From the NCBI GenBank assembly GCA_002946415.1, contig NJPS01000014.1:37205-101204 (forward strand): a stretch of 64,000 nt of DNA. The letters are read 5' to 3'. Origin of the DNA: Rutstroemia sp. NJR-2017a BVV2. Its lineage: Eukaryota > Ascomycota > Leotiomycetes > Helotiales > Rutstroemiaceae. The notes below the pieces were generated by a model. The model was not told the origin of the DNA. It did not search any database and saw nothing but the letters and a program-made list of their open reading frames with translations. Each line of letters opens with the position of its first letter. Position 1 is the first letter of the stretch. Both the position numbers and the translations under genes were made by a program. This document shows, piece by piece, positions 33,051-64,000 of this stretch.

Positions 33051-33699
33051 CGATATCTGTTTGTACTAAGAGATTTTCTTATTTAATAAATCTTCTATAT
33101 TAGTATATAATTTATTATAGAAAGTAAAACTTATAGTTATTAATTCTTTCTAATTTCTATTTACAATAATATATTCAAAAGCTCTTTCTTTTACCAATAT
33201 AATAACTATCTTATCAATACTCTATAATCCTTAAACTAGAGAATATATATATAAGAGAATAGTTTTAAGAAACTTTTAATAAAGCAAAGTAATTATATCT
33301 AATATTAGAAGAAATTTATTTATCTTCGAAAAAATATTTCCTTTAAATATATCTCCGAATCTTGATTAATTTATATCTAAACAAGAATAATAATATCTTT
33401 TCTCGAATATTATAATCTTATTTAGTATTTCGAATCTCTCTATAATAAATCCTCTTCAATAATAGATATTATATATTGAATCAGATCTTTCAATTATATA
33501 ACTAGGTATAGAAAAGATTAGATAATATAGCGATAAATATAAAGTTAATATAAAAAAAGAACGAATATATTTAAAAACTTTTATAGATATAGTAGAAAGT
33601 CCTTAATTAAAAGATAATCTTGAAATATATTTAGATATAGAGATTTCAAAGTTATAAAAGATTAGTATACTTTATAATAAAGATACTATTATTATAGAA
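33051..33699. other. AT-rich, unassigned
   Basis: Between the MULE coding remnant and the Gypsy 5' LTR. Probably MULE 3' sequence; nothing specific recognised. Confidence 0.3.
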
Positions 33700-34243
33700 T
33701 ATTATAATATATTTAGAATAAGAGTTTAAAGATCTTAGATTTAGAAGATAGTTAACTACTATTTGATAAAATCGAATTATTATATAGAGATTATATAATA
33801 AAATAAAATCTAGATATCTATATTTTTGATATAGAGATAGGAAAAAGATATCTATAATTATCGATATACTTTTATAAGAAATAGTATTATAGAAATAAGA
33901 TATTTGAGAATAGATAAATACTAAAGTAATTAATAATACCTTTAGAACTTTAAGCTAGAATTATATAATATCCTAGTAGCTTTTAATAGTCCTAGTAGTA
34001 AGAATTGATAAGATTAATAAGATAGTAGAGAACAAAGATCTATATAACTAGATAGTTTTCTTTAGTATATAAAGTTTTATATTTAACAATAATTACTATT
34101 TATTTATCTACTATTATAATTACAATCAATTCTCTATATAACTATTATCAATAATAAATCTATAGTAGTATTATTAGTTACTATAATCTCTAATACTTAA
34201 GATCCTAATTACTTCTATATAACTTAGAAGATAAATATTTATA
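33700..34243 (+). repeat. Gypsy 5' LTR
   Basis: Matches 40030-40576 in direct orientation over about 545 bp. The presumed terminal TG is TA here. The right edge is estimated from loss of similarity, give or take a few bases. Confidence 0.75.
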
Positions 34244-40029: not shown

Positions 40030-40576
40030 TATTATAATATACTTAGAATAAAAATTTGAAGATTTTAAATTTAGAAAGTAGTTAATTACTATTTAATAAA
40101 ATCGAACTATTATATAAAGATTATATAATAAAATAGAATCTAAATATTTATATCTCTAATATAGAGATAAGAAAAAAGTATCTATAATTATCGATATACC
40201 TTTATAAGAAATAATATTATAAAAATAAAGTATCTAGAAATAGATAGATACTAAAGTAATCAATAATATCTTTAATAGAATCTTAAACTAGAATTATATA
40301 ATATCTTAGTAGTTCTTAATAATCCTAATAATAAAAATTGATAAAACTAATAAGATAATAAAGAATAAAAATTTATATAACTAGATAGTTTTCTTTAATA
40401 TATAAAACTTTATATTTAATAATAATTACTACTTATTTATCTACTATTATAATTACAATCGATTTTTTATATAACTATTATCAATAATAAATCTATAATA
40501 GTACTATTAATTATTACAACTTTTAATATTTAAGATTCTAATCACTTCTATATAACTTAGAAAACAAATATTTGTA
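40030..40576 (+). repeat. Gypsy 3' LTR
   Basis: Direct repeat of 33700-34243; similarity starts at tattataatat and ends near tttgta. Edges are approximate. Confidence 0.75.
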
Positions 40577-43289
40577 ATATAAAACTAGAAGAGTTTAATA
40601 ATAATATAATAGATATATTAATTAAGAAATAGATATTCGATAATATAAAGATAAATAATTAGGATATTAATAAAGAAATAGAGATATAATAAGAATTTTA
40701 AATTATTTCTTAAGATTTATTATGATTTTTATATTTTACTTCAGAATTATAATTAACTATTTTAATAAAGGTTTTTTTTTTTGGAAAAATTATTATATAT
40801 AATATTATTATATATTAAAATATAAAGATATTATATAGTAAGTTATATATCTCCGATATATAATATCAAAATATAGGTTTATAGATAGATAACAAAAAGA
40901 TATAGATATTTAGCAAAACCTTATTAATATATATTGGTTTTATTTAAATAACTAATAATATAGTAGTATTTACCAAAAATCTATTAACTAATAGAATATA
41001 GAGTTTTATTATATAGCGACGAAAAATATTATTTATAAATCTTTTGCAATATTCTATTTTATTAAATAAGAAATTTAAAAAAGAATCTATTATTAATATT
41101 CTTAATTTCTAATTATTATATTTTCGCTAATACTTTTCTTAGCTATATATTAATATCTAACTAAGTTATATATTACTTAATAATATTTATTTTATCTATA
41201 GAATAAATATAAATCTTATTATTATAAATTAATAATACTAAGTATTTAATATATAATAATCTTCTCTCTTTATTTATCAACTATCTTATATCAACTAATT
41301 ACTATATTTTGTTCTTTCTAATTATATAACTAGATATATTTAGATAGTTTTATTATAATTATATATCTTTTTTAATTCGAAAACTCTAGTAACTTTAGTT
41401 TTATTAAAGATTATACCGAATATATTCTATTATATATAATACTATTTTATATTTAAAGATAGAATATAGAGGAAGTTATTTTTGATAACTTTAAAGTAGG
41501 AATTTATATAGATAAAACTAAATATAAAAAGATTCAATTCTATAATAACCAAGTTATAAAAGATAGATTATAGTATTTTTAGATAAACTTATATTATATT
41601 AATAAATCTAATTATATAAAGTTTTCAGAAACTATTAATTCTATATTTAGCTAATATCGAGATATAGCTAAATATTATATTTATCTCTTCGATATTTCTA
41701 TATAAAATAATATAGAAAAGTCTTTTTCTCGATCTTTATAGAAATTAGCTTTTTAGAATAATTAATAGTTTATTAAAATATAGATATTCTAAGAACTTAT
41801 TATATTATATTTTATTAAATTCTTTTTTTAGAATAACAAAAGATTAGATAATAAAAGATTATTAGAAATATCAATTTATAAGATTATAAATATCTTAGTA
41901 AAAGTATTATAAAATAAATATTTTATCTAACTTTCTATCGAAAAGTAGATATAATAGATAGCGAAATATATTACCAAATATAAAGAAAACAAAATATATT
42001 CTTTATTAAGAATCTTCGGTTTATATATTCTTCTTATTTATAGTAAAGAAGAAGAGAATATATATATTTAGCTTAAAGAGAAGATTAGTAAATATTTGAA
42101 AAATAAGTTTAACTATATCTAGATAAGATCTCGATATAATGAAAACTATAGCTATAGTTAGTTAATATATAAATTTTTATTATAGATACTGATATTTAGA
42201 ATAATATATATTAGATTATATCTTGTTCAATTAATAATCTATTTATTAGATATAGTAAACTTCTATATCGAATATAAAAAACTATATATAGTAATTATAT
42301 TTTCTCTTCTAATATATAAAAGCAATTTGTTATTAGTAGTTTAGATAAACTAAAGAAGAATAAAATTTATTTATAAGTTATAAATCAAATATAGAAAGAT
42401 TATAATATATCTATATCTCTGATATTATTATCTATCTTAATTAATAATCTTAATCAATAATTATAGATTCTGGAGGATCTTCTGAATCGATATTAGCAAA
42501 ATATCTATTATAGAAAACAATTTTATTATTATAATAAAGTTGTTTAGATATTTAGTTAAGAATATATCTAATATTCTTTAGATTCTCGCAAATATTAAAA
42601 AAGTTTAACTTCTTATTCTCGATAATACCGATAATCCGAACTTTGATTATCAGATTTATTTTCTATTTGAAATATATAATATAGTTCTTATAATATCTTA
42701 TATTTCTGAATATTTCTCTATTTTATAATATTTATATAATATCTAAACTCGATAATATATTTTATAATTAATTTTATTTATATTAATTTATAGAATTTCT
42801 CTTTTATAATTCTCTTTTTATTAATAATATTATATATATAATAAATTTCGTATTTTGAATTTTTCGAAAATATTAAAAATAATCTTAATAAATTATATAT
42901 AATTTATTAAATTATATTTATTATTAAAAAGATTTTAAAGATATAATTAAATTTATTTAATTACTTTATTTTTAAAATATAATATAATTTAATTATTTAT
43001 TATAGTTAATTTATTGAATTTATTTTAGTTAAAAATAATATATATTTCGATTTATAATAAAAATATTTCGAGTTCGTATTAATTATCTTTATATTTATCT
43101 AATACAGTTATTTTAAAAGTTTTCAAAATAATAATTTCTTATAATCCATTTATATTTATATTGTTTTTATTATTCTAATTATTATTAAAAATAATAAATA
43201 TCTAAAAAGTAGATTAATTATTAAATATTAATTTAAATATAATGAAAATATCGATTTGATATATAAAATAATAAAGATATTCAAAATAT
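40577..43289. other. AT-rich block with a possible RIP-killed NLR-type ATPase remnant
   Basis: No intact gene. On the plus strand near 42588-42735 a frame reads NIKKV-stop-LLILDNTDNPNFDYQIYF, followed by an IVLIISYISEY-like stretch. This resembles the Walker B region of fungal NB-ARC/NACHT (NLR, STAND) proteins, where LLILDNADDPxxDYxxYFPSG and TSR follow. The Walker A loop was not found and frames upstream (41400-42500) are ambiguous, so the identification rests on one motif. It could also be another repeat. Confidence 0.3.
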
Positions 43290-45914: not shown

Positions 45915-46964
45915 CTAAGCTTGATCGAAGAACACCCAAGACCGAACTTCAATGGAGCGTCTGGTTGGCGCGTCCGACGCACTGCTCATATCCCAGAATG
46001 CCCCGTGCGGAGTTACTTTGGTCACATCGGAGTCGAACGACGAGAAAACGAGCGCCTCATCAACATCGAGGTTGCTTGCATAATGATATGTATACCTACG
46101 ATGACTCGAATTAGATCACTGCTTCTTCAATAGGAAAATACTCTGGTGTTGGATCCGCACAAGAACCTTACCTGGGATCGTGCTTCAGTACACTGTCATA
46201 GCCCTTTCGACCTCGAATAGCTGCCCTCGGATCATTTTTCGAGAATATTCGCGCCAGATGTGTGTCGTAATTCCAATCTGGCACAGAGCTGTGGTTCACA
46301 AAACACAAAGGCCACTTATGCACCATTTCCCCGACAGGACGCCATACATTGATCTGGGCCCAGCGCGGATACCTAGCCAGCAGATTATCGGCTTCCTTAC
46401 CAAGAGTGTCCCTCAGTGGACCTGTAGCTGTCTCGAAATCTCGATCGATGTGCAGAATTGGCACCGCGGCGTGTGATATATCAGTGGTGGCAGAATCATC
46501 GAGGCCTTTGCTCTGTTCTCGCACACGAAATGTGTAGGGATGGACCTCCTGGCAACCCGTCATTTCCTTTATCAAGTCGGCTACTTCGCTGAAGTAAGCA
46601 TTTTCTATGAATGCCTTGCCTTGACGCCAGTACACTCGTTAGATATGCTTGTTGTGTACATATGGGCTATGGCTGAGCCGAAAAGACAAATGCACTCACC
46701 TTCTGGGGAAGTGCCAGCGAGAAATTGCTCCGCTGTCAACGATGTTTTGCATTTGACAAGTTCGTGTCCATTTTTATCTAAGCACGGTTGGAGCTGTTGG
46801 TCCCGGATGTCAAAAATCTCGACTCGGAATTTTTTAGCATCTTCACAGTTCGTCGACCCATTTGAGTAGTCAATAAAACCATCTACCTTTCCATCTTTAG
46901 TCCCGTTCCACATACCAACAATTCCAATCGTCGATGGTGAATCCTTGCCGAGATTCATTTTCAA
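45915..46964 (-). CDS. AsaB/CmcJ/NvfI-family oxygenase or desaturase
   Basis: Exons 46964-46700, 46634-46172 and 46095-45915, with introns of 65 bp (gtgagt...gag) and 76 bp (gtaagg...tag), give 302 aa, the usual size for the family. The central HAAVPILHIDRD, ARYPRWAQINVWRPV and WPLCFVN blocks and the C-terminal PHGAFWD...RRSIEVRSWVFFD are typical of the fungal family named after CmcJ, AsaB and NvfI, non-haem iron/2-oxoglutarate type or methyltransferase-annotated enzymes found in secondary-metabolite clusters. His in HIDRD is a likely metal ligand. Substrate unknown. It lies 1.05 kb downstream of the P450 on the same strand and presumably acts with it. First AG acceptor (aacgag) is slightly unusual. 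Start is the first ATG of the exon; an alternative is two codons inside. Confidence 0.82.
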
Positions 46965-48017
46965 AAAAGCTGGCGAAGAGAAATTTGGGTTTCAAAGGTT
47001 GATATGCCAAAGAGAATCTGGGTTGTCTTGTCACTCAATTCTCTGGGTGTAAACGCTGAGTAGCTGAAAGGGCATCCGCCTTGCAGCGTATTACCGAGGC
47101 AACGAAGGATGACTTCTTCCTCGGATAGTCTGAATTTTCGTGCATGACATTTTGAAGATAGCCAAAGGCCCCTGGAAAGTAGAGCTTCTTGCGTCGAAAT
47201 GCAAGTTGTCGCGCAAGGCGGGTCAGATTGGAAGCTGCAGGCGACCAGAGGCTGTTTAGTTCATCCATGCACCAAATTGTGGAGACAACAGGGTGATAGA
47301 TGCCTGAAGTTCGCCATTCACGGTTTATTCTGCAGCCTCCGGTCCTTCGGCTTAATTTTTGCTCAAAAATGTCTTTTTGATTTCTCCGGTGCGGAGCATG
47401 ATACTGCAGGCCTCTTGACCTTGCATATCGCTAGTGCTTCATGCAGTCGCCTTCACTGCGGCAAGGCATTATACTTGGTCTCAAGGATAAATAATTGTAG
47501 TCCCTGTTCTAGTACCTTTTATTTGACAGCCAATAATTTGGCAGATAGTATATCTTTTGTGCTATTTGATTGAGTAAAACTTACGATATGCAGCGACAGG
47601 GACTACAAGTATTTATCCTTGGGACCAAGTAGTAGCTCTAGAAGGATCATACATGAAGTGGTGGAGCTTGGGTTGCCCCCTGAAATATATGAATTTCTTG
47701 GTGCTATCACCTGCCGGATTGGGCCCAAAGTCAAGGTTCTCGGGCTGTTAATCCGAGTTAGAACACGACATACATTTCCTGAACAGATATTGGTTTCGTA
47801 GCTTCAATCCTAGAGGGAAGTGTTTTAATGGAGAACGAGAGTGCTTGCATGAAGAGAAGTGGCTTCTCTATACTGAAGTCTCAATTTTTGCTGCGCTATA
47901 ATTGCTGGGAACAAAACACGCGAAAAAAATACGCCAATGGCCAACACAGGCTACAATTGTTCACTTCTACCACCGTCGAATCTTTAGATACAATGAAGAA
48001 GCTTGGAATAGCCTCGG
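46965..48017. other. Intergenic with MITE and one unassigned 77-codon frame
   Basis: A minus-strand frame 47268-47035 (starting MDELNSLWSPAAS) has no recognised family and no clear splice partner; it could be a relic. A 156-bp MITE lies at 47474-47629. 47630-48017 is the 3' flank of the P450. Confidence 0.4.
47474..47629 (-). repeat. 156-bp MITE, copy 1
   Basis: Ends are inverted repeats (cttggtctcaaggataaata and its complement), about 34 bp each, flanked by TA at 47472-47473 and 47630-47631, as for Tc1/mariner-type elements. Two further copies of exactly 156 bp in opposite orientation lie at 53575-53730 and 53857-54012. Confidence 0.85.
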
Positions 48018-50057
48018 CTACCACCCTTCCAAACGTGTCAGCTTGGCCATGACTCCATCTTTCGGCGACGCAGAGATGGCTGTCACCACCTCAACCCTTT
48101 TCGTTGGATCTTGGAGCTCAATCTTAAATCGACCTGCTATGACAGCTATCATGCAAGCAAATTCGGATTTGGCAAAAGTTTGTCCAATACAGCCCCTTGG
48201 ACCATACAGGAATGTCAGATTCGCGTAGTTACCATTAGCGCCCCCGTTGCTAGCTTGGCCTTCTCTCATCCAACGCTCAGGGTTGAAAACTTCAGCGTCT
48301 GGGCCCCAGAAGTCTGGATTTAAGTTGGTTGCGCCAGGTACGATCAAAAGCTGCGTACCCTTGGGAACGGGCACGCCACCAAGCGAGGTATCTTTGGTTG
48401 CAACTCTGACTGTGGAACGTACTGGTGGAGAAAAGCGCAAAACCTCATTGCAGAAAGCGTTGAGATACGGCAGCGAATCGATTTGTGCTGATGAGGGTGG
48501 CTGTGGGTCTAAGCTCTCCTCCGATGGAATAGTAGCAGGAAGATGAGCTATCACTGATGTTACTCTCCGAGTATGGGGTGACACTTGGCCAAGTTGCTTA
48601 CCTCGAATCTCTCCCCGCAGTCGGGATTGGATCTCTGGGTACTTGCAGAGTGCGAGGACTGCCCATTGCACTGATGCTGCAACAGTTTCGTGTCCCGCTA
48701 CAAGCATAGTAATCATCTGATCCACCAAGTTCTCGTCAGTGAACAGTCCACTGGTAAGTGCAACAGATGCAACATCTTTTTCCGTCAGTTCACCGAGTCG
48801 CTGTTTTTCCTTCTTATGTTGAACCATTTGCTTCGCAACTTCCCGGACATAATCTGCGGCCTCTTGGGATTTCTTGTTTGCCTTGATAGGAAGTTTGAAG
48901 ATCGCCTCTTTCCCGCCGAGGATTACCATGCTAAGCAGAATTACCCATTTTGTAAATGTCGTCTGCTTGAATCTCAATTTGTCCAGCTCCTGACTGAAAG
49001 TGTTATTGGGATTTGTAATTGCCCCAAAGTCGTGTCCCATACCTGCCGCCCCAATAACGTCCACTGCATCAAAGTCAATTTTTTTCATCTTTTACTTAAA
49101 GACATGAACAATATCTGCAGTTTGCTGGTTGTTCATATGATTGCGAGGCAATAAGTTGACAAGGTACTTACATGTAGATCTGTGAGACCAGTCTCTTATC
49201 TGTATTCCATGCTTTTTAGCAGAAGGTGATTGAAGCTGTCTCTCCATGCCATCTGCCATCTCCACCGATTTCGTCCAGAAAATCGGATATAGAAGTTTGA
49301 TATGGCGAAATTGAAAGCTAGGCATGAGTCCTTTCCGTTGCATCTATGCTAATGTTAACTTCTATCGATGGTTAAGTTGAGGATTGCTCGTACCTTGTGT
49401 TCCTGCTGTTCGGCAACGATTATCCCATTTCCTAATAGACGTACAAGCTTAACTTTTAACGATGCTGGCTTCTCAAAGTCATACGCTTTGGACACCAGAA
49501 TTTCGCTGAGCGCCTCTCGCCCAACAACCAAAACTCTTTCGAAATCCCCGAGCATATAGCACCGGATTAGACCATTGTTTGGAACTGCTCTTGTCCATCT
49601 TCGGACACGTTCGATTGGAACGCTCAAGAAGATACTAGTATTGTTTCCAGTCAACCAGCGTCGGCCCTGATCAAACAATAAGCAGCTGGATTCTTCATAG
49701 CCTTCAAGGACGAATCAAGCTTCGAAACAGCTGAAGTCTGCACAATCTGTGGCTTACCTTTGGTGTTGGAATATGTTTTATGGGCGAGAGAAGTTCCGGA
49801 TATAGAAAGATGCCGTAAAGCAACTGTGCGCAGACCGCAACAAACAGGAAACTAGAACATGTCCAGAAGTATGATCCCTTCACAGAGTACTGAGGAGAAT
49901 ATCTGAGAACGAGTAATGCAGCACCCAGGGCAAACACACTCCATAACCGAGCCATCTTCACGATGAATGAGAATAAGTCGCTTGCAAACTGATACAATAA
50001 GTCAAAAAAATCCGGTTCTGACGCAGGAAGTTTGAATGTTACTCGTTTCTTGCTCAT
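48018..50057 (-). CDS. Cytochrome P450 monooxygenase
   Basis: Five exons: 50057-49758, 49666-49394, 49343-49172, 49063-48602 and 48547-48018, with introns of 91, 50, 108 and 54 bp. All phases agree and give 578 aa. Haem-binding FLYGPRGCIG with the Cys ligand at about residue 522, an I-helix AGHET, ExxR in NEVLR and the PERW block after the meander are all present. The N-terminus has two hydrophobic stretches (about residues 40-90), so it should sit in the ER membrane. Slightly longer than most P450s because of that extension. Likely hydroxylates a pathway intermediate; substrate unknown. Transcribed divergently from the citrate synthase across 1.2 kb. The 108-bp intron is the least certain join; it restores a STLDVIGAAGMG block expected in fungal P450s. 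Confidence 0.9.
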
Positions 50058-51256
50058 GGCTTATGTGCCGTGCCAGACTCAATTTCGGTGGTCCTCGAGA
50101 TCGCACGCAGAGGTCGGCTTCCAGCGCCGCTTTTGATCTCATCACAGATACTGGATACGGTAGTTTTGTCATCCACCTATCTCAGCTTCTCACTTAAGTT
50201 AGGATCAAAAAAAACCGTGCGTCCATACAGCAAGATAGGCTAGGGTCCCCGTTCAATGCGGCTTACTCTGCCACCATCTAAGCTAGGAACAGGCCACACC
50301 ACGTAACCGCTGCCCAGAAGCTTACGAATCTCATGCCCGTTGCGAAAAGCTTTGATACGCCTGTGCCGCTGGCCCGCTGCACCGTAGATCATCTCGTAAG
50401 ACGGCATGACCGCCGAGGCCTTCGGCTATATACCCTGCTGACAACTCTGAGACCTCATGAAAAGCTTATTATGCAGTGAGCCTCCATTTCGTGTGGATTG
50501 TCTTAAACAAATTGTGGATCTTATCTTATCTTGGTCATCTCTCCGGGAGTCTGACAAGCCCTCTGGTTTTCAACCACCGCCCCTGGTCCAAGTGGTGACC
50601 CTGCTGCTTGCTAGGACTGCTTGCAGCAAGCTATAGCTGCGGAAAAATACTCGAGAAGTTCATGTCTTCACTAGTCACCGACCCATGTCTGGTTATGCCT
50701 CAGGGTCATTAAGTGGGTACAGTACCGTGCCAAAAGTATTTGGACATGGTCTATGCACACAGCCCACAACAACACGAAAATAGCATGCTGCTTTAATATA
50801 TTGTATACTACCCTTCTGCATCAATAACTACTTTTACTACGTTGATAACATATAATGAATATAAATCCTCAAAACGATAATATTATTAAAGGAGAGAAAA
50901 AATTAAAGCAGCATGTTATTTTCGTGTTGTTGTGGGCTGCGTGTATAGACCATGTCCAAATACTTTTGGCACGGTACTGTAGGAAGGTGCCAATAGGTAT
51001 ATATTCAGATGGTGCATAATCAGTACGATTTATTCTCGTCTATTGGCGAGAGCGTATAGGCGACAGTTTGGAGTGTGAACAGTTCCTTAAATTCGAGCTA
51101 GGTATCGGTGAGCCCTGAACCCTTGCTCCTTCAGTTGTGCTTGATTTGGACTCACACAATAACAGCATAGCTAGAACTCCCCTCAAGTGCGAAGGCCAGA
51201 CACGAGCATTCTTTACTCCTTCTCCAACAGGTCATCCTTTTGCTGTTGTGTACATC
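50058..51256. promoter_or_regulatory. Divergent promoter region between P450 and citrate synthase
   Basis: 1.2 kb separates the two start codons, so both promoters must lie here. A 260-bp MITE occupies 50720-50979. I saw no clear zinc-cluster palindrome. Co-regulation of the pair is inference from the divergent layout. Confidence 0.45.
50720..50979. repeat. 260-bp mariner-type MITE with about 75-bp inverted repeats
   Basis: Begins cagtaccgtgccaaaagtat and ends with its complement, flanked by TA (50718-50719, 50980-50981). The arms match over about 75 bp with few mismatches; the centre is AT-rich with no coding capacity. The cagta...aaaagtatttggaca type end is characteristic of Tc1/mariner elements. 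Confidence 0.85.
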
Positions 51257-52885
51257 ATGGCAGTGTCACTCTACCAGCGATGGTTGACAACTCTGTATCT
51301 CTTCTATCACCGTTCATTGGGGCATACAACTATCGGACCATCCGACGGCACTCTATCCATTACGGACGATCGTACTGGCCGTAGGTATCGACTTCAAATC
51401 AAGAATAATGCTGTCAAGGCGCTCGACTTCATGCAGATCACTTCTGCTGGAGAGGGAGCAGACTTCGTTGATCACTTTGACAATGGTATCAAAATCCTTG
51501 ACCCTGGATTCTGGAATACAGCATGCGTTGAAACACCAATCACGCTTATGTGAGTCAAATCCCAATATCTGGCTCGAAAGGGCTTTGTACTGACAGAAAT
51601 TTGAAACAGTGATGGCAAGCGTGGTTACATCCAATTCCGTCAATATTCGATCGAGTACTTGTTCAAGAACCAGGATTATGAGAGTGTGATTTTTCTTCTG
51701 ATATGGGGTAATCTCCCAACAGCAGAAGAGAAGAAGACTTTCCGCCAGAAGATAGCAAAAGAGATGGTGCCTCCTCAGTGTGCAATTGATGTGATCAAGT
51801 CTTTTCCGTAAGTCAATGTCAATCCACAAGTGCTTTCCTTACCTTTTGGCTTCTGTGCTCTTCATGAGTTGATCAAAGACGAATAACAGACGAGATTCCT
51901 TAACATTTCCGATGCTCCTGGCCGGTATAGCTGCATTCACTTCCTGTGATGAAGGCACTCGAGGACTCCATGGCTCCGGAAAAGCATATTACCTCGGCAA
52001 TGCAGAGAAAACAGATGCTGCGCTTTTCCGAACGATTGCTGCCCTTGCTACTGTCACGGCATTGGTGTACTGCCACAAGAGAGGACGGGAATTTACACCC
52101 GCAAATCCTGATGAGTCCTACATTGGCAATATCCTTCTCATGATGGGCGTTGCGAATAAACAGAAAATTGAGCGCTGCTTTGAGCGCCTCTGGATCTTGA
52201 ACGCGGATCATGGCATGACCAACTCTACAGCTGCCTTCTTGAATGCTGCTTCTACTCTTACTGATCCTTTATCTGCCTCCATATCTGCCCTCGCATCGGC
52301 GTATGGACCTCTCCACGGCGCGGCTGTTGAGATAGCTTACAGGGATTTCGAAGCCGTCGGGACAGTCGAGAATGTGCCCAAGCTAATCGCCGATGTGAAA
52401 GCCAAGAAGTTCCGTCTTTTCGGTTATGGCCATCGTATCTACAAAGTTGTCGACCCTCGTGGTAAGCTCGTCCGAACGCTCATCGAGGAGTACAAAGAGG
52501 ATATTGAGAGCAATCCGTTCTTGAAAGTTGCCATGGAGATTGATCGTGTAGCTGGGTCAGATGAGTATTTTACCTCGCGTAATCTACATGCAAATGCCGA
52601 TCTGTACGGCTGCTTCTTGTACACGGCACTGTGAGCAGTAATCAAAGTGGTGTAAAGGCTTTTTACTGATCATTGGCAGTGGATTTGAAACCGACACTAT
52701 TCTCGCACTATCATGTCTCTCGAGATCTCCTGGTGTCCTTGCACATTGGAGACAGTCAATGAGTAAGTCATCTCCCTGGCATCTTTATCGCTTGCTGATT
52801 GTTGACTTCAGTGTCTCCCACACCTATGTTGTGGCGGCCTCAGCATATTTTTACTGGGGAGGTTGCCAAGTCAGACAAGCAATGA
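51257..52885 (+). CDS. Citrate synthase (citrate/alkylcitrate synthase family)
   Basis: Exons 51257-51549, 51610-51807, 51890-52630, 52680-52762 and 52812-52885, with introns of 60, 82, 49 and 49 bp, give 462 aa. The enzyme condenses oxaloacetate with acetyl-CoA or a longer acyl-CoA. The catalytic triad is visible: His in YGPLHG (about 306), His in GYGHRIYK (about 345) and Asp in NADLYG (about 401), plus the conserved NADHG (about 271). The C-terminus ends MLWRPQHIFTGEVAKSDKQ, so there is no SKL peroxisomal signal. The first 29 residues carry Arg and no acidic residue, which could be a mitochondrial presequence; the start at 51257 is the first ATG in frame but not certain. The context (P450, AsaB-like, acyl-CoA oxidase, exporter) suggests a pathway copy rather than the Krebs-cycle enzyme. 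Confidence 0.9.
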
Positions 52886-53574
52886 ATGCGGAAGTATTAT
52901 GTGTACCTCTTCAGATTTTGATTTCCTCTCTCGAACGGGTATCAAACATGTATCTATGTTTGGCTACATTAGAATAGATTTAGACATAGAAATCTCAAAA
53001 GACCGGCGACAAAGCACTCTGACATTTGCTTGTTGACTTTTACCTTAACAAACGTTTGAATTGGAAATCATAATCTACAATGCAGTGTGACCCAACACGT
53101 CAACGGTGTACTGAATGGTACTACATCATGCGAGCTAGCGATTGACAATTTCTTCGCATGTCTTTTCATCTCGAAAGCCCGGAATGCCTTTCATTCGTAT
53201 CCTCCGAGAGCCCCACCTACAACAGACAACCGCCCCAGTGACTGCAGGAATAGCTAGGGCAGTAGTGGTATCAGCAGGGGGTCTTTTCAATAAGGGCCCA
53301 GTGGGGGGAGGTTGACGTTTCATTTAGCCTCAACAGTGGAGGTCAACGTACCTGCATACAGCATACCAGCAACGCACCGGAAAAATTATCAAGCTTTACT
53401 TCATCAAAATTTTCTCCCATAGCGGAATCCACTAAGGCAAGTCTGACGTGAGTGAAAATCTAGTAACGTCGTACAAGTGGGGTATTGACAGACTATGCTT
53501 TCATGCAGCTTATCAAGCTCCGCCGGATTGATGCAACCGGATGTTCGACGGTGCAGCAACTAGCTCTGCTCGTA

Positions 53575-53730
53575 CTTGGTCCCAAGGATAAATACTTGTA
53601 GTCCCTGTTGCTGTATATCGTAAGTTTTACCCAATCAAATAGTATAAAAGATATACTATCTGCCAAATTATTGGCTATCAAATAAAAGGTACTAGAACAG
53701 GGACTATAATTATTTATCCTTGAGACCAAG
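53575..53730 (+). repeat. 156-bp MITE, copy 2
   Basis: Same length and ends as copy 1 but in opposite orientation; TA on both sides (53573-53574, 53731-53732). Confidence 0.85.
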
Positions 53731-53856
53731 TAAATGCTACCGCGATAAGCCTGTATTATCAGATCTAGCTTCGGAAACGATAGAGGGTATTGTATCAAGC
53801 TCCACCAGATTGATACAATTGGATGTTCGATAGTGCAGCAATTAGCTTTGCTTGTA

Positions 53857-54012
53857 CTTGGTCCCAAGGATAAATACTTGTAGTCCCTGTTGCTGTATAT
53901 CGTAAGTTTTACCCAATCAAATAGTATAAAAGATATACTATCTGCCAAATTATTGGCTGTCAAATAAAAGGTACTAGAACAGGGACTATAATTATTTATC
54001 CTTGAGACCAAG
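53857..54012 (+). repeat. 156-bp MITE, copy 3
   Basis: Second MITE of the tandem duplication; TA at 53855-53856 and 54013-54014. Almost identical to copy 2, so it was copied by duplication rather than transposition. Confidence 0.85.
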
Positions 54013-54349
54013 TAAGTGCCACCGCGATAAGCCCGCATTATCAGATCTAGCTTCGGAAACGACAGAGGGTATTGCATCAAGCTCCAATATTCGATAGTTC
54101 CTGATACAAGCAAGCGAGATACTTGTAAACTTCAATCGTACGTAAACTATCGTATAGGGAAAGTGGACGTGGTGAAAGGACTTGTGGGTCAGATTAAAAC
54201 GTGAGCATGCCGTCCCTTGTAAGAGCAATATACGTAGAGATGCCCTGCCGATGAGAGCAGAAAATGGTTCAACGGATCAGACCTCTCCACTTGACTTCAA
54301 GTGCATTCTTCTTGGAGTGATACTTTCAAGTCTGAAGGCAGCATCGAAA

Positions 54350-56482
54350 ATGGGCTCAATTGAAGCACTTCAGGTCTTTGAGACTCAATCATTGTTACCA
54401 AGCGCCGAAAGAGCATCCGTCGAAGTGGCTGAGGTTTTCGAAACTCCGCCCGTGTTGGAAAGTACCGCGTACTTGACCAAAACCCCTCTCTTTGAGCCAA
54501 GACACGCAACTACACGTCATGAAGCTTTCAGACTTTCATATGAAAGAGCCAAAGTGATCAATAAACACTGGAGTCTGTTTAATTCCTCCTCTTGCACTTA
54601 AAGTACGCTGACTTTCTTGCAGGTTTCACTATAGATGATACTCTTTCCCTCACCCCCAAGTTCTGGGCCATGCATAGAGATGGCATCATCCTTAATGACT
54701 TGGGAGCGCATGCCATGCTTTCTATTCAACATAACTTGGTTGCTGGAACACTTGCTCGATATGCTACGGGCAATGCGGCACTTGAAAAGATCTTACAAGA
54801 TGTAGTGGATTTCAAGGTTTCGTAAGTGCTACCTCAAAGCTCTTAGTCATAAGTCTTGCAAAAGGAACTGATTTTATACAGAGCTGGCTTTATGCTTACT
54901 GAATTGGGCCATGGCTTGGATGCTAAGAATTTGGAAACGACGGTGAGACGACTGTCTGATGGTAGTTTCGTTCTCAATACGCCTTCACTGGCTGCGACAA
55001 AGTAAGACCACCCGTCTCCATTTACCAGGTGGAAAAATACTGATATTGCAGATTCGTTCCTCCTTCTATGCCAGTTGCTGGTCTTCCTCGCATTGCAATT
55101 GTTATTGCTAAGCTCTTAGTTGGGGATGAAGACCGTGGTATCCGTCCTGTTTTGGTGGCTCTCGGAAATGGTATGGAAATGTGCAGTGGGGTGAAGTCTG
55201 TGTAAGTGCAAAAGTTATTGCCTTGATGCAAAAGTCGCTCGTGAAACCAAACAGATGCACCAAGAGATGGGACCAACTTGCTGACGGAACATCTTCAGCC
55301 TCCTTCCTGAATTGAGCGGAATTCAAAGCCCTTATGCCATGACATCGTTTGACCATGTCCACCTACCTGCCACTGCAGTCCTTGGAAGTCTCGAAATGCC
55401 TAAAGACAAACGCATCCACTTCTTCGATGTTATCGAACGGATCACTACCGGAACCCTCGCCCTAAGCATGATCATGATCCCGGCTCTCAAGCTCGTTACA
55501 CATATCACTGGCAAGTATAGTTTACGTCGACAAGTTGGAACCCCCGGCAAGACCCAAATACCCATCATCAAGTTCCGCACTCAGCAAGCACCAATTTGTC
55601 ACGCACTTGCTCGTCTCGCTTGCATGGAGCCTTTTGCGGATGAGATGATCAAGCAGTACAAGGACACATCACTGAAGCCTGAGGTTCGAGGAGGCTTCAC
55701 TGTCATTCTCAAGGCTGTGTTTTTACACTATGCCCAGCATAGCATGCCTCAGCTTGTTGAGAGATGTGGTGCTCAGGCACTGTTCAAGCATAATCAGATT
55801 TGCGATGCAGACGTGAGTTGGCATACCAAAAGCTGCTTCGGTTGCCAGAGAATCAGAGCTAACTTCGATACAGAATCTCGTCCGCGCAGCCGCCATTTCG
55901 GAAGGAGATGCCTTAGTCTTGTGTATTCGTCTCGCAGTTGAAATTTGCCTAGGCAAATATGCCATGCCCGAAGCAACAAACCCAGATTGCCTCCTAGGTC
56001 AATACGAAGCCGGCCTAGCTGAGGAAGCTCTGACCACTATCGAGAGCATTCCTGAAGGTCACCGAAGTGACGAGTTTAACAGACAGCTCATCCCCCGCTG
56101 CAGACCCATTGTCGAAGCCATCGGACATCGCATGGTATATGAAGCAGCAGTCGCAGCCGGTGTTGATGCCGACCTGGTCTCCCTGTTTGAGATTGGCTGT
56201 ATAAAGGAGAATCTCAGTTGGTATATTGAGAATGGTCGGCTTGATAGAGCGAAGGTACGCGACATTGAGAATGCGGCACTAGACTCCATCGATCCCCAGA
56301 TCGACAGCCTTTTAGATAAATTGGAATTTGCCCCTTATGTCACGGCACCGATCATTTCTGATGAATTGTGGGAGAAGTTCGCCCCGGAGCTGGAAACATA
56401 CAAAGGAAATGCCGAGTATGACCTCTTTGGAACGAATACGAGTTCTACGTATGGAGAACAGGATATTGTGGGGCGTTGTTGA
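54350..56482 (+). CDS. Acyl-CoA oxidase/dehydrogenase-like flavoenzyme
   Basis: Exons 54350-54572, 54623-54821, 54882-55001, 55052-55201, 55299-55812 and 55874-56482 give 604 aa with consistent phases. The product fits the FAD-dependent acyl-CoA oxidase/dehydrogenase superfamily: an N-terminal helical domain, the TELGHGLDAKNLETT block (about residues 147-161, compare TELGHGSN in acyl-CoA oxidases), a beta domain, TSFDHVHLP (about 246-254) and a long C-terminal helical domain. It would desaturate or oxidise an acyl-CoA thioester. No SKL terminus (ends VGRC), so peroxisomal targeting is not evident. The first donor (gtctgt) is weak and the 97-bp fourth intron could have an alternative acceptor. 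It follows the citrate synthase on the same strand, which suggests linked CoA chemistry. Confidence 0.83.
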
Positions 56483-57476
56483 GGAGAGCTACAGTTAGAT
56501 AGAGCAACATAATTGTGCTACCAGTAGACACAGAAACAAATTGTGGTATTTGCGCCCCATGACAAATTCCATGAATTTGTGAAGCACCATACGTGACCGC
56601 AGAACGAAATTGACGCCCACTTGGTCGGCACCGTGTGGCCGACTCATGTCTGGGCAAAGTGGCTTGGCGTGCCCAGCCGGGGCGGGCCGTGGTTTGTCGA
56701 AGCATGCGTGCGGCACAGCACAGGCGGGGCGGCGGGGCTGCGGGCGCCCGAAAGAATCGCCGTCTCTTCGGCCATTTCGTTTCGCAAAATGGTTTGCAAG
56801 CAGCTCCACTGGCCCTGCAAGCCATTAGGGCCTATTGTTCTCGTCAACATCTCGGTGTTTCATTTTACCGGACATAAGTGAGCAGGGGCATAAAATATTA
56901 AGAGTCCTGAGCGAGATAAGCAAGGGTTCATGCGGGAGTCTGGAATGCTTGTCTGCGGGATTATTACTATCCCCTAATAAAAGTGTAGCGTGGCCGGGGT
57001 CCTGTCAGGGTATGGTATACGTGAGTACGTGAGAACGGTCGTACCAGCCCAGCCACGCTACATTTTAAACAGGGGCGGATAGTATGTTGTGTGTTCCGGA
57101 CCGTCATCTAATCTGATAGATCCTTTGCAGACGGGGCCGTCTACTGTACCCTTGCTACTGATAAGATCCTCGTCTACTGTACCCTTGCTACTGATTAGAT
57201 CCTTGCAGAATGAGGCCTGCTCCGGCTGTCTGAGCCGGTTAGACAGATGTTGGTTTTTGTAAACGCCCAATGTCGTAAGTTGCACCCAGGTTAAATGCTG
57301 CCTTAAGACTAAGGCCTTTCAGTTAACGGTTACTCCGGAAATTACGGAATAAGAAGCACAGTCACCGTAAAATTCCTCTCCTTCTTTCTTTAGAATTGAC
57401 TGCAGTTGCCTATCTTGCCCTCAACCCGTGACACCCAACAGTAATTTTATGATCTTTTCTGTGTTCGACTTCGAGC
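56483..57476. other. Intergenic, GC-rich patch and small repeats
   Basis: 56600-56830 is unusually GC-rich with frames open in several phases by composition; no motif supports a gene. An 11-bp inverted repeat (tgtagcgtggc at 56984-56994, complement at 57052-57062) forms a hairpin or small MITE of about 79 bp. A 33-bp direct repeat (tctactgtacccttgctact...) occurs twice at about 57139-57203. The last part is the promoter of the transporter gene. Confidence 0.5.
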
Positions 57477-59260
57477 ATGGCCGACTCGTCCAAGAACAAC
57501 CTGACCATGGATTCTGTCCTAGAAATGGAAACTAACAAAGAGGAAATCGCGACTCATCCTGAACCAGAACTCCCAACGCATACGTCGTCCGTCGCGCTCA
57601 AAAATGAATCGATTGATCTAGATACAGAAACAGATCCAGACACGAATGAAGCAGCCGCCGCAACCACCCCAGATCCTTCGCAATGGTCGATATGGAGCAA
57701 CAAGGAAAAGAAAATTATCATCTTCGCCGCTTCGTTTGGATCATTGTTTTCTTCGCTGTCGGGGCAGATATACTTCCCGGCTTTGAACACTATAGCGAAA
57801 GATCTTAATGTTTCGAATAATTTGGTTACTTTGTCTATTACAACTTACTTGGTCAGTGCGATTTTTCATCTTGTTGGAATCTAGTTTCTACATACAGGAA
57901 AGGGAGCATTCTCGACGGGTTTGAAATAAGTCACTGTACAATCTAATTGTGTTTACCCAAGAAGTAGATATTCCAAGGAATCGCCCCTACCTTCACAGCC
58001 CAGCTGTCCGATACTGCTGGAAGACGACCGTCATATATGATATGTTTCGTCCTTTACATAGCCGCCAACGTCGGACTTGCCCTCCAAAACAACTACGCAG
58101 CCCTCCTAATCCTCCGCTGCCTGCAAAGCGCCGGCAGTAGCGGTACAGTAGCACTAGCCAGTGCCGTTGCCGCCGACATCGTGACCACCGCTGAACTCGG
58201 CAGCTACATTTCTTTCGCAGCCGCAGTACCTATGCTCGCACCATCTATCGGCCCTATCATCGGAGGAGTAATAGCCACCTTCGCTGGATGGCATTGGATT
58301 TTCTGGTTCCTCTTGATACTGTCTCTCCTTGTAGCCATTCCCTTTGCCATATTCTTCCCAGAAACCTGCCGCAAGATAGTAGCCGATGGCTCAATCCCAC
58401 CCCCAGCATGGAACAAATGCTACCTCAACATTCGCGAAGAACGAAAAGCTCTCCTTAAAGGCACACCCATCAAGTACGCCGAGCGCGACGAATTGGCCCA
58501 AACGAGGCACATCCGCTTCCCCAACCCCTTCACGACCATCCTCCTCCTGCTGCAAAAGGAGTGCGGCTTCGCCCTCCTCTACAGCGCCTTCCTCTCCTGC
58601 ACCTACTACGCAACCATGTCCCTCATTCCCTCTCAATTCGGGAGTATATACAAATTCAACGATCTTCAGGTATCCCTCTGCTATATTCCCTTTGGCATAG
58701 GCAGCATGACCGCAGCATTTAACCGCGGTCGCATGATCGACACTAATTTCCGTCGACACTGCCAACGCCTTGGGATCACGTACGATCGCAAGTACCAGGC
58801 CGATCTGGCTGATTTTCCCATCGAGCGCGCGAGGTTGGAAGTTGCAATCCCGACTGTGTTCTTGGGCAGCGCGTTCGTGATTGGTCTGGGATGGATGCTG
58901 CAAGCTCACGTCAATCTTGCAGGACCGTTGATTTTCATTTTCGGGATCGGGTTTTGCTTGAGTGCGAGTATCAATACCGTGCAGGTGTTGATGATTGATC
59001 TATATCCTGGCAAGACGGCAACAGTTACGGCAAGTAATAATTTGGTCAGGTGTTTGTTAGGAGCCGGGGCGACGGCGTCGGTGGTCCCTATCATTGATGG
59101 GATTGGGATTGGATGGTGTTTGACGTTGTTTGGATTGGTGAACTTGGTTACGACGCCGTTGTTGTGGTATATCATGAAGGAGGGACCGGGGTGGAGGGCT
59201 GAGAGGAGGAAAAAGGTTAGTGAGGGTGCGCTACCGACAGCGAGAGATGTAACGAAATAG
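57477..59260 (+). CDS. MFS exporter, DHA1 family (Qdr/CexA-like)
   Basis: Exons 57477-57851 and 57968-59260, with a 116-bp phase-0 intron (gtcagt...gtag), give 555 aa. An acidic cytosolic N-terminus of about 75 residues precedes about 12 membrane spans. MFS motif A is present as LSDTAGRRP (about 138-146), and the PSIGPIIGG motif C, which marks antiporters, follows. ETCRKIVADGSIPPP after the sixth span is typical of DHA1 proton antiporters of the Qdr/Dtr1 type, a group that includes the fungal citrate exporter CexA. Probably exports the cluster product, or citrate-like acids, across the plasma membrane; the substrate is inferred from the neighbouring citrate synthase. Last gene of the cluster, about 4.6 kb from the telomere array. 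Confidence 0.88.
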
Positions 59261-59377
59261 GATGCTCAAGGAACCTAATATGAAGAGCCTGCAAAGAGGA
59301 TACATTAGAGAATATATTAGGATTTACGCAACATGTATTGAAAGAACTGTGAAATCTTCCAATTCTGAATATATACC

Positions 59378-59700: not shown

Positions 59701-59830
59701 TCCTCTAGTTAATCCGATCTTCAAATCAGCAGTCCAGCTAATCAACACTTGTTAAAATCCATAAAGACAATGAGCCGAAGATACCCTAGGTAGCAAATGG
59801 AGCAGGATTTGAAATTATTTAAATGCTTCG

Positions 59831-60144: not shown

Positions 60145-60224
60145 TACTAAGCTTAGGGACCTTAGTTATTTATTCGACTACTAAACCAGCCTATTTATAG
60201 GCCAATTCGATCATAAACTCAGCT

Positions 60225-62354
60225 ATGGAGTTCGACGGAGATAAGCTTAGAATTATTAAGCTTACAGGTACCAACTATAGGGCCTGGAGCATATAGGTGC
60301 AGCTGTACCTTGACGGCTAGGATCTATAGGAGGTAGTCGAACAGGGCTTTGATGGTGCTAAGGGAGCATCTGGGAAGCCTAAGGGAGAAGGGAAGGAGCC
60401 TGTAGAGGCCCCTAAGGATCGAGAGTGGAAGAAGAAGGACTTAAGGGCTAGTATTATAATTCTAGGTCTATGCAGAAAAGAGGCCTTGAATTATATGCTA
60501 TCGAAGGAGACTGCTGGGTTAAGGTAGAAGGCTCTAGAAAGGCTCTATATACCTAGGGGAATCCAACAATTGAGCTCAAAAATCGAAGCCTTTTCTAGCT
60601 ACTCAGTATCTAAAGGAAGTACTAAAAGGGTAGCTGAAATCTCAACCGACCTTAGTACCCTTCAGGAGGATATAGGGCTTATAGACTCTGAAGAGATGCC
60701 CTCGGAAAAACAGAAGATAGGGGTTCTTTATAGGGTTATTCGTATCTATGATCCTAGGTTTGATAGCCTAATCAACTAGCTCAAGCTTAGAGAGAAGCCT
60801 CTAGATTATATTAGTATAGTGGAATTCTTGGCTGAGTACGAACGAGAAATAGGCTCTAAAGAGGATGCTAAGGAAGGAGCTCTTAGTACTTAAATATAGA
60901 GCAATCAGAAGGGCAACTTAGAGAAGAATAAATAGAAGGCTAAAGGGAAGTACTTCAATTATAGCCAGAAGGGCTATTTCAAGGCTAACTGCTCTGGCTT
61001 AAAGAGGAATAAGGGAGCTAGTATAGGGCCCCTAAGTATCCCTAGTAGTAGGAGAGGTCTATCTTCTAGACTGTAGATAGCTAAATCCGTAGAGATTAGC
61101 TAGATATCTCTGGAAGGAAGCCTAAGGTATAGTAATCAAGAGCCTATATAGATTATTGATTCGGGGTATTCTAGATATATAACCTATACTAGGTAGCAGT
61201 TCGATAACTATACCGAACTAGCCAGGTTTATAGAAGTGACTATAGTATCGGGGATAGTAATAAAAGGTATCGGCTAGGATACTATTAGACTACAAGTACT
61301 AGTCTAGGAGCAGATTAGATTGATAAAACTAGTGGATATACTATATATTCCAGAACTAGCTAGATCCTTTATATCAGTACTACAACTCTAGAATAAGGGA
61401 TTAACTATTCGCACTACTATAGGACCTAAAAGGGAGCTTCTAATATAGCTCCAGAGGGCTATAGTGGGTATAGCTAGGTAGATAGACTAGATATATATAT
61501 TCTAGAGTCCAAGGTTAGGTTAGGAAAATACTTATTTAGCTACTTAGAGAGCAAAAGACTTTTAGAAAGTACTAATATAGTATCGAAGATTAGGCTATTT
61601 GAGTACTAGTATTCTGAAAAGGCTAAAAGAAGTGATTACAGAGCTCGATAAACCTATTAAAGAGCTAAAAGAGCTCTATAATACCTGTTTAACCTTTAAA
61701 TCAATAAGGGTAATTAATAGGAAGATATCTAAGCATTATATAAAGCTTCTAGAGCAAATATATAGTGACTTTTGGGGTCCTTATAATATATCTAGTTTGA
61801 ATAGAGAAACCTATATATTTATCTTTACTAATAATTATAGCCGGAAATTATAGGTTTATTTTAGCAAGGAGTATAAAAAGCTTAGAGAGTTTTTTCAGGT
61901 ATTTAGAACTAGAGTTGAGGTTGAATTAGGTCTAAAATTAAAAGTGATTAGATATAATAATGCCCAAGAATATAAGGTATTGGAAAGAGCTCTAGTTACT
62001 ATAAAGGTATAATTCGAGTTTATTATATTTTATATATCTAAGCAAAATAGAGTTGCTAAGTACCTAAATAGAAACCTAATAGATATAACTAGAACTATAC
62101 TATAGGATTTAGGTCTATCTAGCAAATTCTAGATAGAAGTTACTAATACAATTTATTACTTGAGGAATAGGATCTCTGTAAGATCTAATAGACTTATCTC
62201 CGAAAAGATATATAATGGGAAATATCCTTATATTGGGTATCTAAGAGTATTTGGATATACTATCTATACTTATATTACTAAGGAAAGGAGGTTCAAACTT
62301 GAGCCAAATACTAGAAAAATAGTATTTATAGACTATATATCTATAGCTAGATAA
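60225..62354 (+). pseudogene. Copia gag-protease-integrase, many stops
   Basis: Single frame family with TAG stops from CAG, first at about 60294. The open segment 61599-61853 carries the pre-integrase end and the integrase start; 62160-62354 carries the integrase C-terminal region (NRISVRSNRLISEKIYNGK). In the gag knuckle a Cys and the His are changed to Tyr. Non-functional. Confidence 0.78.
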
Positions 62355-63802
62355 TACAGATTATATAACCCTGAATCGAATAAAGTAGTACTAGCTATAA
62401 TATCTAGATTTATCGAGAATCAGCTATTTAAGCTAGAGATCTTTGAAATCCAACTAATAAGTAATCTTGAAGAAACCGAATTATCTGAAAAAGATATTAT
62501 TATAATAGATATAAGTTATCTAAAGAGTCTAGAAATAACTGGCTTAGAAGATTTAGAGAGCTCTAAGTTATCTAAATCAGATAAGCCAGAAAGGTTAAAT
62601 AAGCTAAGTAAACTTAAGAGACTTAAGGATCTCGAACTAGGGAGGAATAATATCCTAGAAGATACTAAAACTCAAGATTACTAGAAACCTTTTTAGATTC
62701 AAAAACCTCTTTAGACTCAAGAAACTTTCTAAGGAAAGATATTATAGACTAGGAAGTCTAGGAATTATATTTTGCTAATACCCGAAAAAGTTAATATATC
62801 CTAGAGCTATTCCGAAACAATAAATAACTTTATATAGAGAACTTACTAAAAGGAGGTAATTAAGGATAAACTAGTGAAATTATAGATTCTAGATATCTAA
62901 GAATATATTATACTTCCAAAAAGAAAGAAGTTTATAGATACTAAATAAATATTCATAATTAAGTATACTTCTATAGGTCTAATCGATTGTTTTAAGATCA
63001 GGCTAGTTATATAAAACTTTAGCTAAGTACTTGGAGATAACTTTTTAGAAACCTTTAATTCTATAATCAGATAAGAAAACTTAAGAGTTCTATTAGTTGT
63101 AGAGATATATAAGGACTTAGAAATCAAATAAGTAGATATAGTTAGTACTTACTCTAGAGCTAAATTATATACTATTATATATACTAAGGTACCTCTAGAT
63201 CTAGAAGGATATCTAGAAAGGAAGGTACTATAGTTAAAAATACCTTTATATAGACTTAAGTAGTTAGATAAAGAATAGTATATCGAAGCTTATAGTAGAT
63301 TCAAAAAACTAAGTTTCCAGTTTTTATATAGCGATCCGAGTATATTCAAGAACCCTGAAACGGAAGTGCTAATAGGCCTATATATTGATAATATATTTAT
63401 ATTAAGTTCTGTATTATAGAAGATATAAGAAGTAATCAAGGGTATTTCAAGTCTATAGCAAATAAAAGATCTAGGAGATATAGAGATGATTTTGGGTTTA
63501 TAAGTAACTCGAGATAGAGAGATAAGAACTTTAAAACTAGTTTAGGAAATCTATATTAAAGATCTAATTACTAGATTTAAGCTTAAAGAGACTAAACCTA
63601 TAAACCTCTTTATAGTAGATCGGGATACCCTAATTAAAAAGGTTGAGAATAAGTTTCTAGCTAATTAAGCTCTATATCAGAGTACTATAGAGAGCCTCTT
63701 ATAGTATACTAAAGGTACTAAACCCGATATTGCTTATATAGTAGGATAGCTAAGCTAGTACTATAATATACTAGTAATTAGGTATTGGAATACTATCTTA
63801 TA

Positions 63803-63872
63803 GATACTAAAGTACCTAATTAGTATCTAGAGATACTAAAGTATCTAATTAGTATCTAGAGATACTATCTAG
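63803..63872. repeat. 29-bp tandem repeat next to the telomere
   Basis: Unit gatactaaagtayctaatta plus gtatctaga occurs at 63803-63831 and 63832-63860, then a partial copy. It lies at the broken end of the Copia element, about 12 bp before the telomere array. Confidence 0.75.
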
Positions 63873-63884
63873 AATATAGCAAAA

Positions 63885-64000
63885 TAGGGTTAGGGTTAGG
63901 GTTAGGGTTAGGGTTAGGGTTAGGGTTAGGGTTAGGGTTAGGGTTAGGGTTAGGGTTAGGGTTAGGGTTAGGGTTAGGGTTAGGGTTAGGGTTAGGGTTA
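63885..64000 (+). repeat. Telomere (TTAGGG)n, chromosome right end
   Basis: About 19 perfect TTAGGG units run to the end of the window, G-rich strand 5' to 3' outward, the correct orientation for a right chromosome end. The number of repeats in vivo cannot be judged from the assembly. Confidence 0.97.

Follow-up and report, generated by a model that had tools for sequence, protein, structure and literature searches.

Can a fungus make an alkyl citrate from a gene cluster that carries no chain-building synthase? The question is raised by a 64-kb stretch of the Rutstroemia sp. NJR-2017a BVV2 genome (C6:37205-101204, here called the window), whose last base is also the last base of the 101,204-base contig C6. 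Toward its end lies an island of five genes, which encode a dioxygenase (OXY), a cytochrome P450, a citrate synthase (CS), an acyl-CoA-oxidase-like flavoenzyme (ACOX), and a major facilitator superfamily (MFS) transporter. We read the island as a subtelomeric alkyl-citrate cluster in which an acyl-CoA from primary metabolism would be desaturated, condensed with oxaloacetate, hydroxylated, and exported, and we put the probability of this reading at roughly 0.6. By its dioxygenase, the cluster seems to be of the cinatrin/squalestatin type, with the chain builder replaced by ACOX, and its product is probably an oxidized compound built from a fatty acid and citrate, akin to the cinatrins and squalestatin. 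Inhibitors of squalene synthase and of phospholipase A2 are known among the alkyl citrates (PMC13178491).

Gene models of the island

All five genes are intact, with GT-AG introns and no broken frame (Table 1), and the gene models bear out a preliminary description of this DNA as holding five intact, intron-containing genes in one island. The models were predicted without transcripts, the introns being set by eye from reading frame, GT/AG consensus, and family likeness. Pfam matched CS to PF00285 (302 bits), the P450 to PF00067 (223 bits), the transporter to MFS_1 (159 bits), and ACOX to ACOX_C_alpha1 (31.7 bits; cut-off, 27). The transporter also scored 129 bits with the Bcr/CflA model, under the cut-off of 200.9, and its placement in the group that includes CexA, made in the preliminary description, was not confirmed. 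OXY had no Pfam match at an E value of ≤0.001 and scored 146 bits with the NCBIfam CmcJ/NvfI model (NF041278), for which the cut-off is 80.

Identity of the citrate synthase

PF00285 matches four loci in the genome, on C78, C64, C58, and in the window. The C78 locus encodes a mitochondrial-type CS (judged by eye), the C64 locus a 2-methylcitrate synthase (2.7e-199 to 5uqu), and the C58 locus probably an ATP-citrate lyase. The window CS is only 24% identical to the C78 enzyme and 26% identical to the C64 enzyme, and with both of these present elsewhere, the window CS was rejected as a housekeeping enzyme. Its closest relative among the matches listed is a Rasamsonia emersonii protein (74% identity). 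A tree was built from 63 rows, consisting of 60 of the 120 listed matches, the window CS, and the genome's two own enzymes. The latter two split from the other 61 rows, the window CS included, which goes against the refuting case named in the preliminary description, a CS that groups with the housekeeping mitochondrial enzyme and is the only copy in the genome. The bootstrap of this tree had not fully settled. The window CS falls in a 9-row clade (100/99) with sequences from Rasamsonia, Aureobasidium, Xylariaceae sp. FL0804, Dactylonectria, and four Fusarium, nested in a 14-row clade (98/95) whose further members are four Aspergillus sequences and one from Penicillium herquei. In a tree that contains no experimentally characterized alkyl-citrate synthase (ACS), and in which species and linkage are the grounds for treating the Hypoxylaceae ACSs as CtrACS, the window CS is by its sequence a putative member of the ACS radiation, in a supported clade.

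In a 13-row motif alignment, the window CS keeps the catalytic-type residues His271, His345, and the Asp of NADLYG, together with the motifs of the oxaloacetate-binding type. We take the roles of these residues from pig CS, in which the counterpart of His271 is presumably the catalytic His274. His271 sits in LNADHGMTNS, and LNA[DE]HGMTNS is common to the window CS and all 8 other rows of the 9-row clade. Among the best 120 CS matches, the pattern could be read in 112, with the catalytic-type His followed by Glu in 95 and by Gly in 17; 13 of these 17 also carry the preceding Asn, sharing LNA[DE]HGMTNS with the window CS. The 8 matches missed by the pattern were P0048 (Glu), P0101 (Gly), and six without a readable motif. 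Both the mitochondrial-type CS and the 2-methylcitrate synthase of this genome have Glu at the position. The change from Glu to Gly beside the catalytic-type His may make the acyl site roomier or alter its polarity, and being clade specific, it offers a way to test how citrate synthases gain the ability to use long chains.

The conserved motifs for catalysis and oxaloacetate binding, on the roles that we take them to have, and the DHA1-like transporter would also suit organic-acid export, in which CS works outside the mitochondrion on acetyl- or propionyl-CoA and the cell secretes citrate or a simply hydroxylated form of it. We regard this as distinctly improbable, since the window CS stands apart from both CS and 2-methylcitrate synthase and belongs to a clade altered beside the catalytic-type His, and since its partners (ACOX, a P450, and a CtrR1-type dioxygenase) suit a long chain.

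Source of the acyl chain

A 21-row ACOX profile matched solved acyl-CoA oxidases (best match, 4.4e-29), and a Foldseek search with the AlphaFold2 model of ACOX (mean predicted local distance difference test [pLDDT] score of 83.5) returned acyl-CoA oxidases over ∼600 to 660 columns, the best being 5y9d (5.4e-21). Glu412 of ACOX is invariant in all 21 rows and lines up with the EGD/EGE-motif Glu in the solved enzymes, which we take to be their catalytic base. Acyl-CoA oxidases yield 2-enoyl-CoA, and because ACSs accept 2-enoyl-CoA, CS and ACOX together could make alkyl citrates from ordinary acyl-CoA. According to the available part of PMC9890510, TstI accepts 2-decenoyl-CoA, and BfL2 accepts both saturated and unsaturated CoA esters. 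In a tree that took in 33 of the 120 listed matches, the window ACOX lies in a 9-row clade (100/100) with the ACOXs of Fusarium subglutinans, Aureobasidium, and Xylariaceae sp. FL0804. Close relatives of ACOX also occur in Trichoderma (P0122 and P0127) and Agyrium (P0126). Trichoderma makes viridiofungins, alkyl citrates whose double bond adjoins the head. A search of open-license papers turned up no biosynthetic cluster for viridiofungin or citrafungin, and a link to the Trichoderma ACOX relatives is a guess.

In the genome, the searches found one locus for the alpha subunit of fatty acid synthase (FAS; C2:1008323-1008876) and one for the beta subunit (C2:1013795-1014844), divergent neighbors ∼5 kb apart that are presumably the housekeeping pair. 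A dedicated second FAS was not found in a genome-wide search with PF18325 and PF08354 in which the best candidates were scored. Ketosynthase domains gave 52 exon-level matches in the genome and condensation domains gave 35, with none of either on C6. Because a single FAS pair was found, on C2, and no ketosynthase match on C6, a dedicated FAS and a clustered polyketide synthase (PKS) are excluded as far as these searches reach. The portrayal of the locus as a cluster without PKS, nonribosomal peptide synthetase (NRPS), or FAS stands for the whole of C6, on which no ketosynthase, condensation-domain, or FAS match was found. The finding of a single FAS pair and of no PKS or NRPS domain on C6 also favors primary metabolism as the source of the acyl-CoA, as had been proposed.

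The chain could instead come from a PKS or another builder encoded elsewhere in the genome, with ACOX only trimming or desaturating it. There are many ketosynthase genes on other contigs, as the exon-level matches attest, and split alkyl-citrate pathways are known, such as that of Aspergillus niger, in which the unlinked hadA acts with the akc cluster (PMC7338620, available part). We consider such a split unlikely here: C6 has no ketosynthase, no second FAS was found, and CS and ACOX are also matched to each other in distantly related fungi (see below), which fits a self-sufficient pair. PF03972, the family of the alkylcitrate dehydratases, matched three loci, on C2, C47, and C64, and none on C6. 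By analogy with hadA, the encoded enzymes could act on the product, but nothing ties them to the island. The C47 locus (C47:1137640-1138410), which is unlinked to the island, is IRG1/cis-aconitate-decarboxylase-like by its matches to structures of IRG1 and cis-aconitate decarboxylase.

The dioxygenase and known alkyl-citrate pathways

The H143xD145...H266 iron triad and R281 of OXY are invariant in all 13 aligned rows, and R281 is a candidate 2-oxoglutarate-binding Arg. The AlphaFold2 model of OXY (mean pLDDT of 89) matches the fold of NvfI and CTB9. OXY is 56 to 57% identical to relatives in Hypoxylon, Annulohypoxylon, and Daldinia, one match bears the name Oxidoreductase R1 (P0287), and the close named matches come mostly from what we take to be the Xylariales and Sordariales. 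In a tree that took in 41 of the 87 matches, the position of OXY among its family members was not strongly supported. We infer that the Hypoxylaceae relatives of OXY and of the window CS are CtrR1 and CtrACS, because all 47 Hypoxylaceae carry the ctr cluster (PMC13178491). On these sequence grounds, OXY is a predicted dioxygenase of the CtrR1/MfR1 family, which ties the cluster to the cinatrins and squalestatin.

The ctr cluster comprises FAS alpha and beta, an ACS, the dioxygenase CtrR1, a flavin-dependent monooxygenase (FMO), a transporter, and a transcription factor, with no dehydratase in the gene list (PMC13178491). FAS and ACS give CJ-13,982, which CtrR1 hydroxylates at C-4 and then at C-2 to a cinatrin precursor; MfR1 of the squalestatin pathway gives the same products from CJ-13,982, and the ctr products are CJ-13,982 and cinatrins C1 and C3 (PMC13178491). 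Like ctr, the window has an ACS with a CtrR1-type dioxygenase, a transporter, and no dehydratase. In place of the FAS subunits, FMO, and transcription factor of ctr, the window has ACOX and a P450, and neither a CtrL2-type FMO nor a transcription factor is among the five gene models, the intergenic gaps having been read by eye only. The window CS and the Hypoxylaceae ACSs are 47 to 48% identical and lie in different clades of the CS tree.

The preliminary description took the missing dehydratase as a distinguishing trait of the locus and the cluster as its best candidate for an undescribed system. The first view is overturned, as ctr likewise combines an ACS with CtrR1 and lists no dehydratase (PMC13178491); its absence is expected because CtrR1/MfR1-type pathways keep the tertiary alcohol. 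The second also has to be given up, since OXY is of the CtrR1 family and the cluster is rather a variant of the cinatrin/squalestatin-type pathway. We found no description of a CS-plus-acyl-CoA-oxidase cluster in the open-license literature.

The squalestatin/zaragozic acid pathway (ACS, MfR1, and MfR2) resembles the window cluster in combining a citrate synthase for condensation with oxaloacetate and CtrR1-homologous dioxygenases (PMC13178491; PMC8851701, available parts). Its chain is a polyketide, whereas C6 has no ketosynthase match; the likeness is drawn from published descriptions of the pathway. A dedicated ACS is also shared with the akc, oryzine, sporothriolide, and piliformic acid clusters. 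However, in A. niger a FAS pair and a 2-methylcitrate dehydratase belong to the akc cluster itself (PMC7338620, available part), whereas C6 has no FAS or PF03972 match, and in sporothriolide biosynthesis the FAS components are cluster encoded, with a homologous cluster in Xylaria hypoxylon (PMC8403587, available part). The maleidride clusters (byssochlamic acid, phomoidride, and rubratoxin) have an ACS that uses CoA esters, including 2-enoyl-CoA (PMC8851701 and PMC9890510, as far as available), and some also have AsaB-like dioxygenases. Unlike them, C6 has no match for the ketosynthase of a highly reducing PKS or for a PF03972 dehydratase. Genes for the maleidride hydrolase, the dimerizing cyclase, and phosphatidylethanolamine-binding proteins are not among the five models; no separate search for them was made.

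Linkage in other fungi

Linkage was assessed from longest-contig sizes that agree to the base between match lists, rather than from gene coordinates. The lists compared took the best 120 each from 747 CS and 178 ACOX matches and the full 87 for OXY; each match stands for a cluster at 90% identity, and one species may hide behind another's name. CS and ACOX fall on contigs of identical size in five species, both members of each pair coming from the same one: F. subglutinans (20,994 bases), Aureobasidium pullulans (52,609), Xylariaceae sp. FL0804 (5,554,875), Aspergillus sclerotioniger (1,518,761), and Aspergillus sclerotiicarbonarius (1,007,916). The linkage in F. subglutinans and A. pullulans is strong, and all five ACOX-linked CSs sit in the 14-row CS clade. 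Seven of the 87 OXY matches, from seven fungi, share a contig size with one of the 120 listed CS matches (Stachybotrys chartarum is listed in this comparison with two strains). In Anthostomella pinea, the OXY and ACS genes are numbered consecutively (125900 and 125910), and in Hypoxylon sp. NC1633, the two are on contigs of identical size. A single ACOX-OXY size match (P0182 and P0316, metagenome contigs of 3,456 bases) was taken as chance. The expectation that the genes occur together in other species is thus borne out in part, for CS with ACOX (five species) and for relatives of OXY with other ACSs (seven); the whole set was found together in no second species.

Subtelomeres gather unrelated genes, and the P450 and the transporter belong to large families that stood outside this comparison, so that the five genes could be chance neighbors that form no pathway. 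We give this very little credence in view of the CS and ACOX genes on contigs of 21 kb in F. subglutinans and 53 kb in Aureobasidium and of the seven species in which an OXY relative shares a contig size with an ACS.

Proposed pathway

We infer the reactions, their order, the substrate, and the product as follows. ACOX would take a fatty acyl-CoA from primary metabolism and convert it to the 2-enoyl-CoA, or would set the chain length. CS would then join the acyl-CoA to oxaloacetate, yielding an alkyl citrate that, with the enoyl form as substrate, would carry a double bond adjoining the citrate head. The CtrR1/MfR1-type dioxygenase would hydroxylate the citrate head, the P450 would oxidize the chain, and the MFS protein would export the triacid. 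The tertiary alcohol would be kept, making a dehydratase unnecessary.

Several observations weigh against this pathway. An unlinked PKS could be the source of the chain, and ACOX is far from the solved acyl-CoA oxidases, at only 16 to 19% identity. The ACOXs of A. sclerotioniger and A. sclerotiicarbonarius fall in another ACOX clade, and Trichoderma and Agyrium, each with an ACOX, are missing from the CS list (the best 120 of 747). Linkage is weak for three of the five CS-ACOX contigs, which exceed 1 Mb. Among the nine named species found in both lists, the contigs differ in four (Aspergillus indologenus, Aspergillus coremiiformis, Pleurostoma richardsiae, and Nemania sp. NC0429); only in A. 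indologenus is the CS one of the 14-row clade. The 13 other CSs of that clade divide into 5 matched to an ACOX, 1 (A. indologenus) with its ACOX on another contig, and 7 without an ACOX among the best 120 of 178. The OXY-ACS contigs are mostly large (111 kb to 10 Mb), Aspergillus japonicus and Xylariaceae sp. FL0255 carry OXY and ACS on different contigs, and the OXY-linked ACSs occupy other branches of the CS tree than the window CS. Among the matches listed, no species but this one has CS, ACOX, and OXY together, and the co-occurrence comparison covered these three genes.

More tentatively, at somewhat less than even odds, we propose that the locus represents a class of clusters without any chain-building synthase, in which ACOX and an ACS with the LNA[DE]HG motif form a two-gene core for beta,gamma-unsaturated alkyl citrates. 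Such a class would span the Eurotiomycetes, Dothideomycetes, and Sordariomycetes and would readily escape searches led by PKS, NRPS, terpene, or FAS genes. Were a cluster to draw its chain from primary metabolism, this would show that the alkyl-citrate class can do without the costly backbone synthase, and it would account for pathways overlooked by genome surveys that begin with backbone genes.

Genomic context

The genome (43.4 Mb) has fungal-type introns, a TTAGGG telomere, and repeat-induced point mutation (RIP). Because C6 terminates in a TTAGGG array, the island is subtelomeric, as first described. The account of an island walled by RIP-mutated DNA is likewise sustained: in the island (45001-59300), GC content is 0.47 and the composite RIP index is −0.59, indicating no RIP, in contrast to the positive indices of both walls (Table 1). 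Mixed stretches at 43001-45000 (RIP index, +0.36) and 59301-61000 (+0.14) separate the island from the walls.

Table 1. Features of the window, in window coordinates
Feature	Position	Strand	Details
OXY, CmcJ/NvfI-family Fe(II)/2-oxoglutarate dioxygenase, predicted CtrR1/MfR1 type	45915..46958	-	3 exons, 295 aa: 46958-46700, 46619-46172, 46095-45915
Cytochrome P450	48020..50057	-	5 exons, 578 aa: 50057-49758, 49666-49394, 49343-49172, 49063-48602, 48547-48020
CS, alkyl-citrate-synthase-like	51257..52885	+	5 exons, 462 aa: 51257-51549, 51610-51807, 51890-52630, 52680-52762, 52812-52885
ACOX, acyl-CoA-oxidase-like flavoenzyme	54350..56482	+	6 exons, 604 aa: 54350-54572, 54623-54821, 54882-55001, 55052-55201, 55299-55812, 55874-56482
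MFS transporter, DHA1-like	57477..59260	+	2 exons, 555 aa: 57477-57851, 57968-59260
Telomere repeat (TTAGGG)n	63890..63997	+	pattern search; at contig end
Left wall, AT-rich RIP-mutated DNA	32001..43000	.	GC 0.16, composite RIP index +0.66
Right wall, RIP-mutated DNA	61001..63880	.	GC 0.29, RIP index +1.10; copia-like by eye

This setting bears on whether the island is what remains of a bigger cluster, of the ctr or squalestatin kind, whose FAS or PKS disappeared close to the telomere, leaving a dead or low-yield pathway. The subtelomeric position, the RIP-mutated flanks, and inserts resembling miniature inverted-repeat transposable elements (MITEs) between the genes agree with such a history, as does the retention of FAS genes in the Hypoxylaceae ctr clusters (PMC13178491). 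We nevertheless consider a relic improbable: each of the five genes has an open frame and well-formed introns, the island has the negative RIP index given above, and CS-ACOX linkage occurs in other genera.

The MITE-like element is ∼160 bases long with inverted ends. Its three copies in the island (47472-47636, 53568-53732, and 53850-54014) are 94 to 96% alike, and longer matches on many other contigs are at most 80% alike. A different element, of 264 bases (50718-50981) with 92-base inverted arms that are 91% complementary, lies in the shared upstream region of the P450 and CS genes. Copia-like retrotransposon remains were recognized by eye at 60200-63880, and the RIP index shows RIP mutation rising toward the telomere.

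A second island of normal GC content (13696-18561) holds open reading frames (ORFs) for an FtsJ-like methyltransferase and a GFA (formaldehyde-activating) protein. These were the sole Pfam matches among the eight ORFs searched outside the cluster, which comprised 7 of the 15 ORFs of at least 120 amino acids listed for 9000-32500 and one ORF at 60528-60779. In the part of the contig that precedes the window (C6:1-37204), GC content is normal in the first 10 kb and the remainder is RIP mutated. None of its ORFs of at least 150 amino acids was judged to be cluster related, by eye only and with no family search run; they include dehydrogenase-like and glycosyltransferase-like ones, also by eye. 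Elsewhere in the assembly, the contigs of the pairs C25/C74 and C2/C71 give matches whose coordinates are identical or almost so, and they seem to be duplicated contigs or true duplications.

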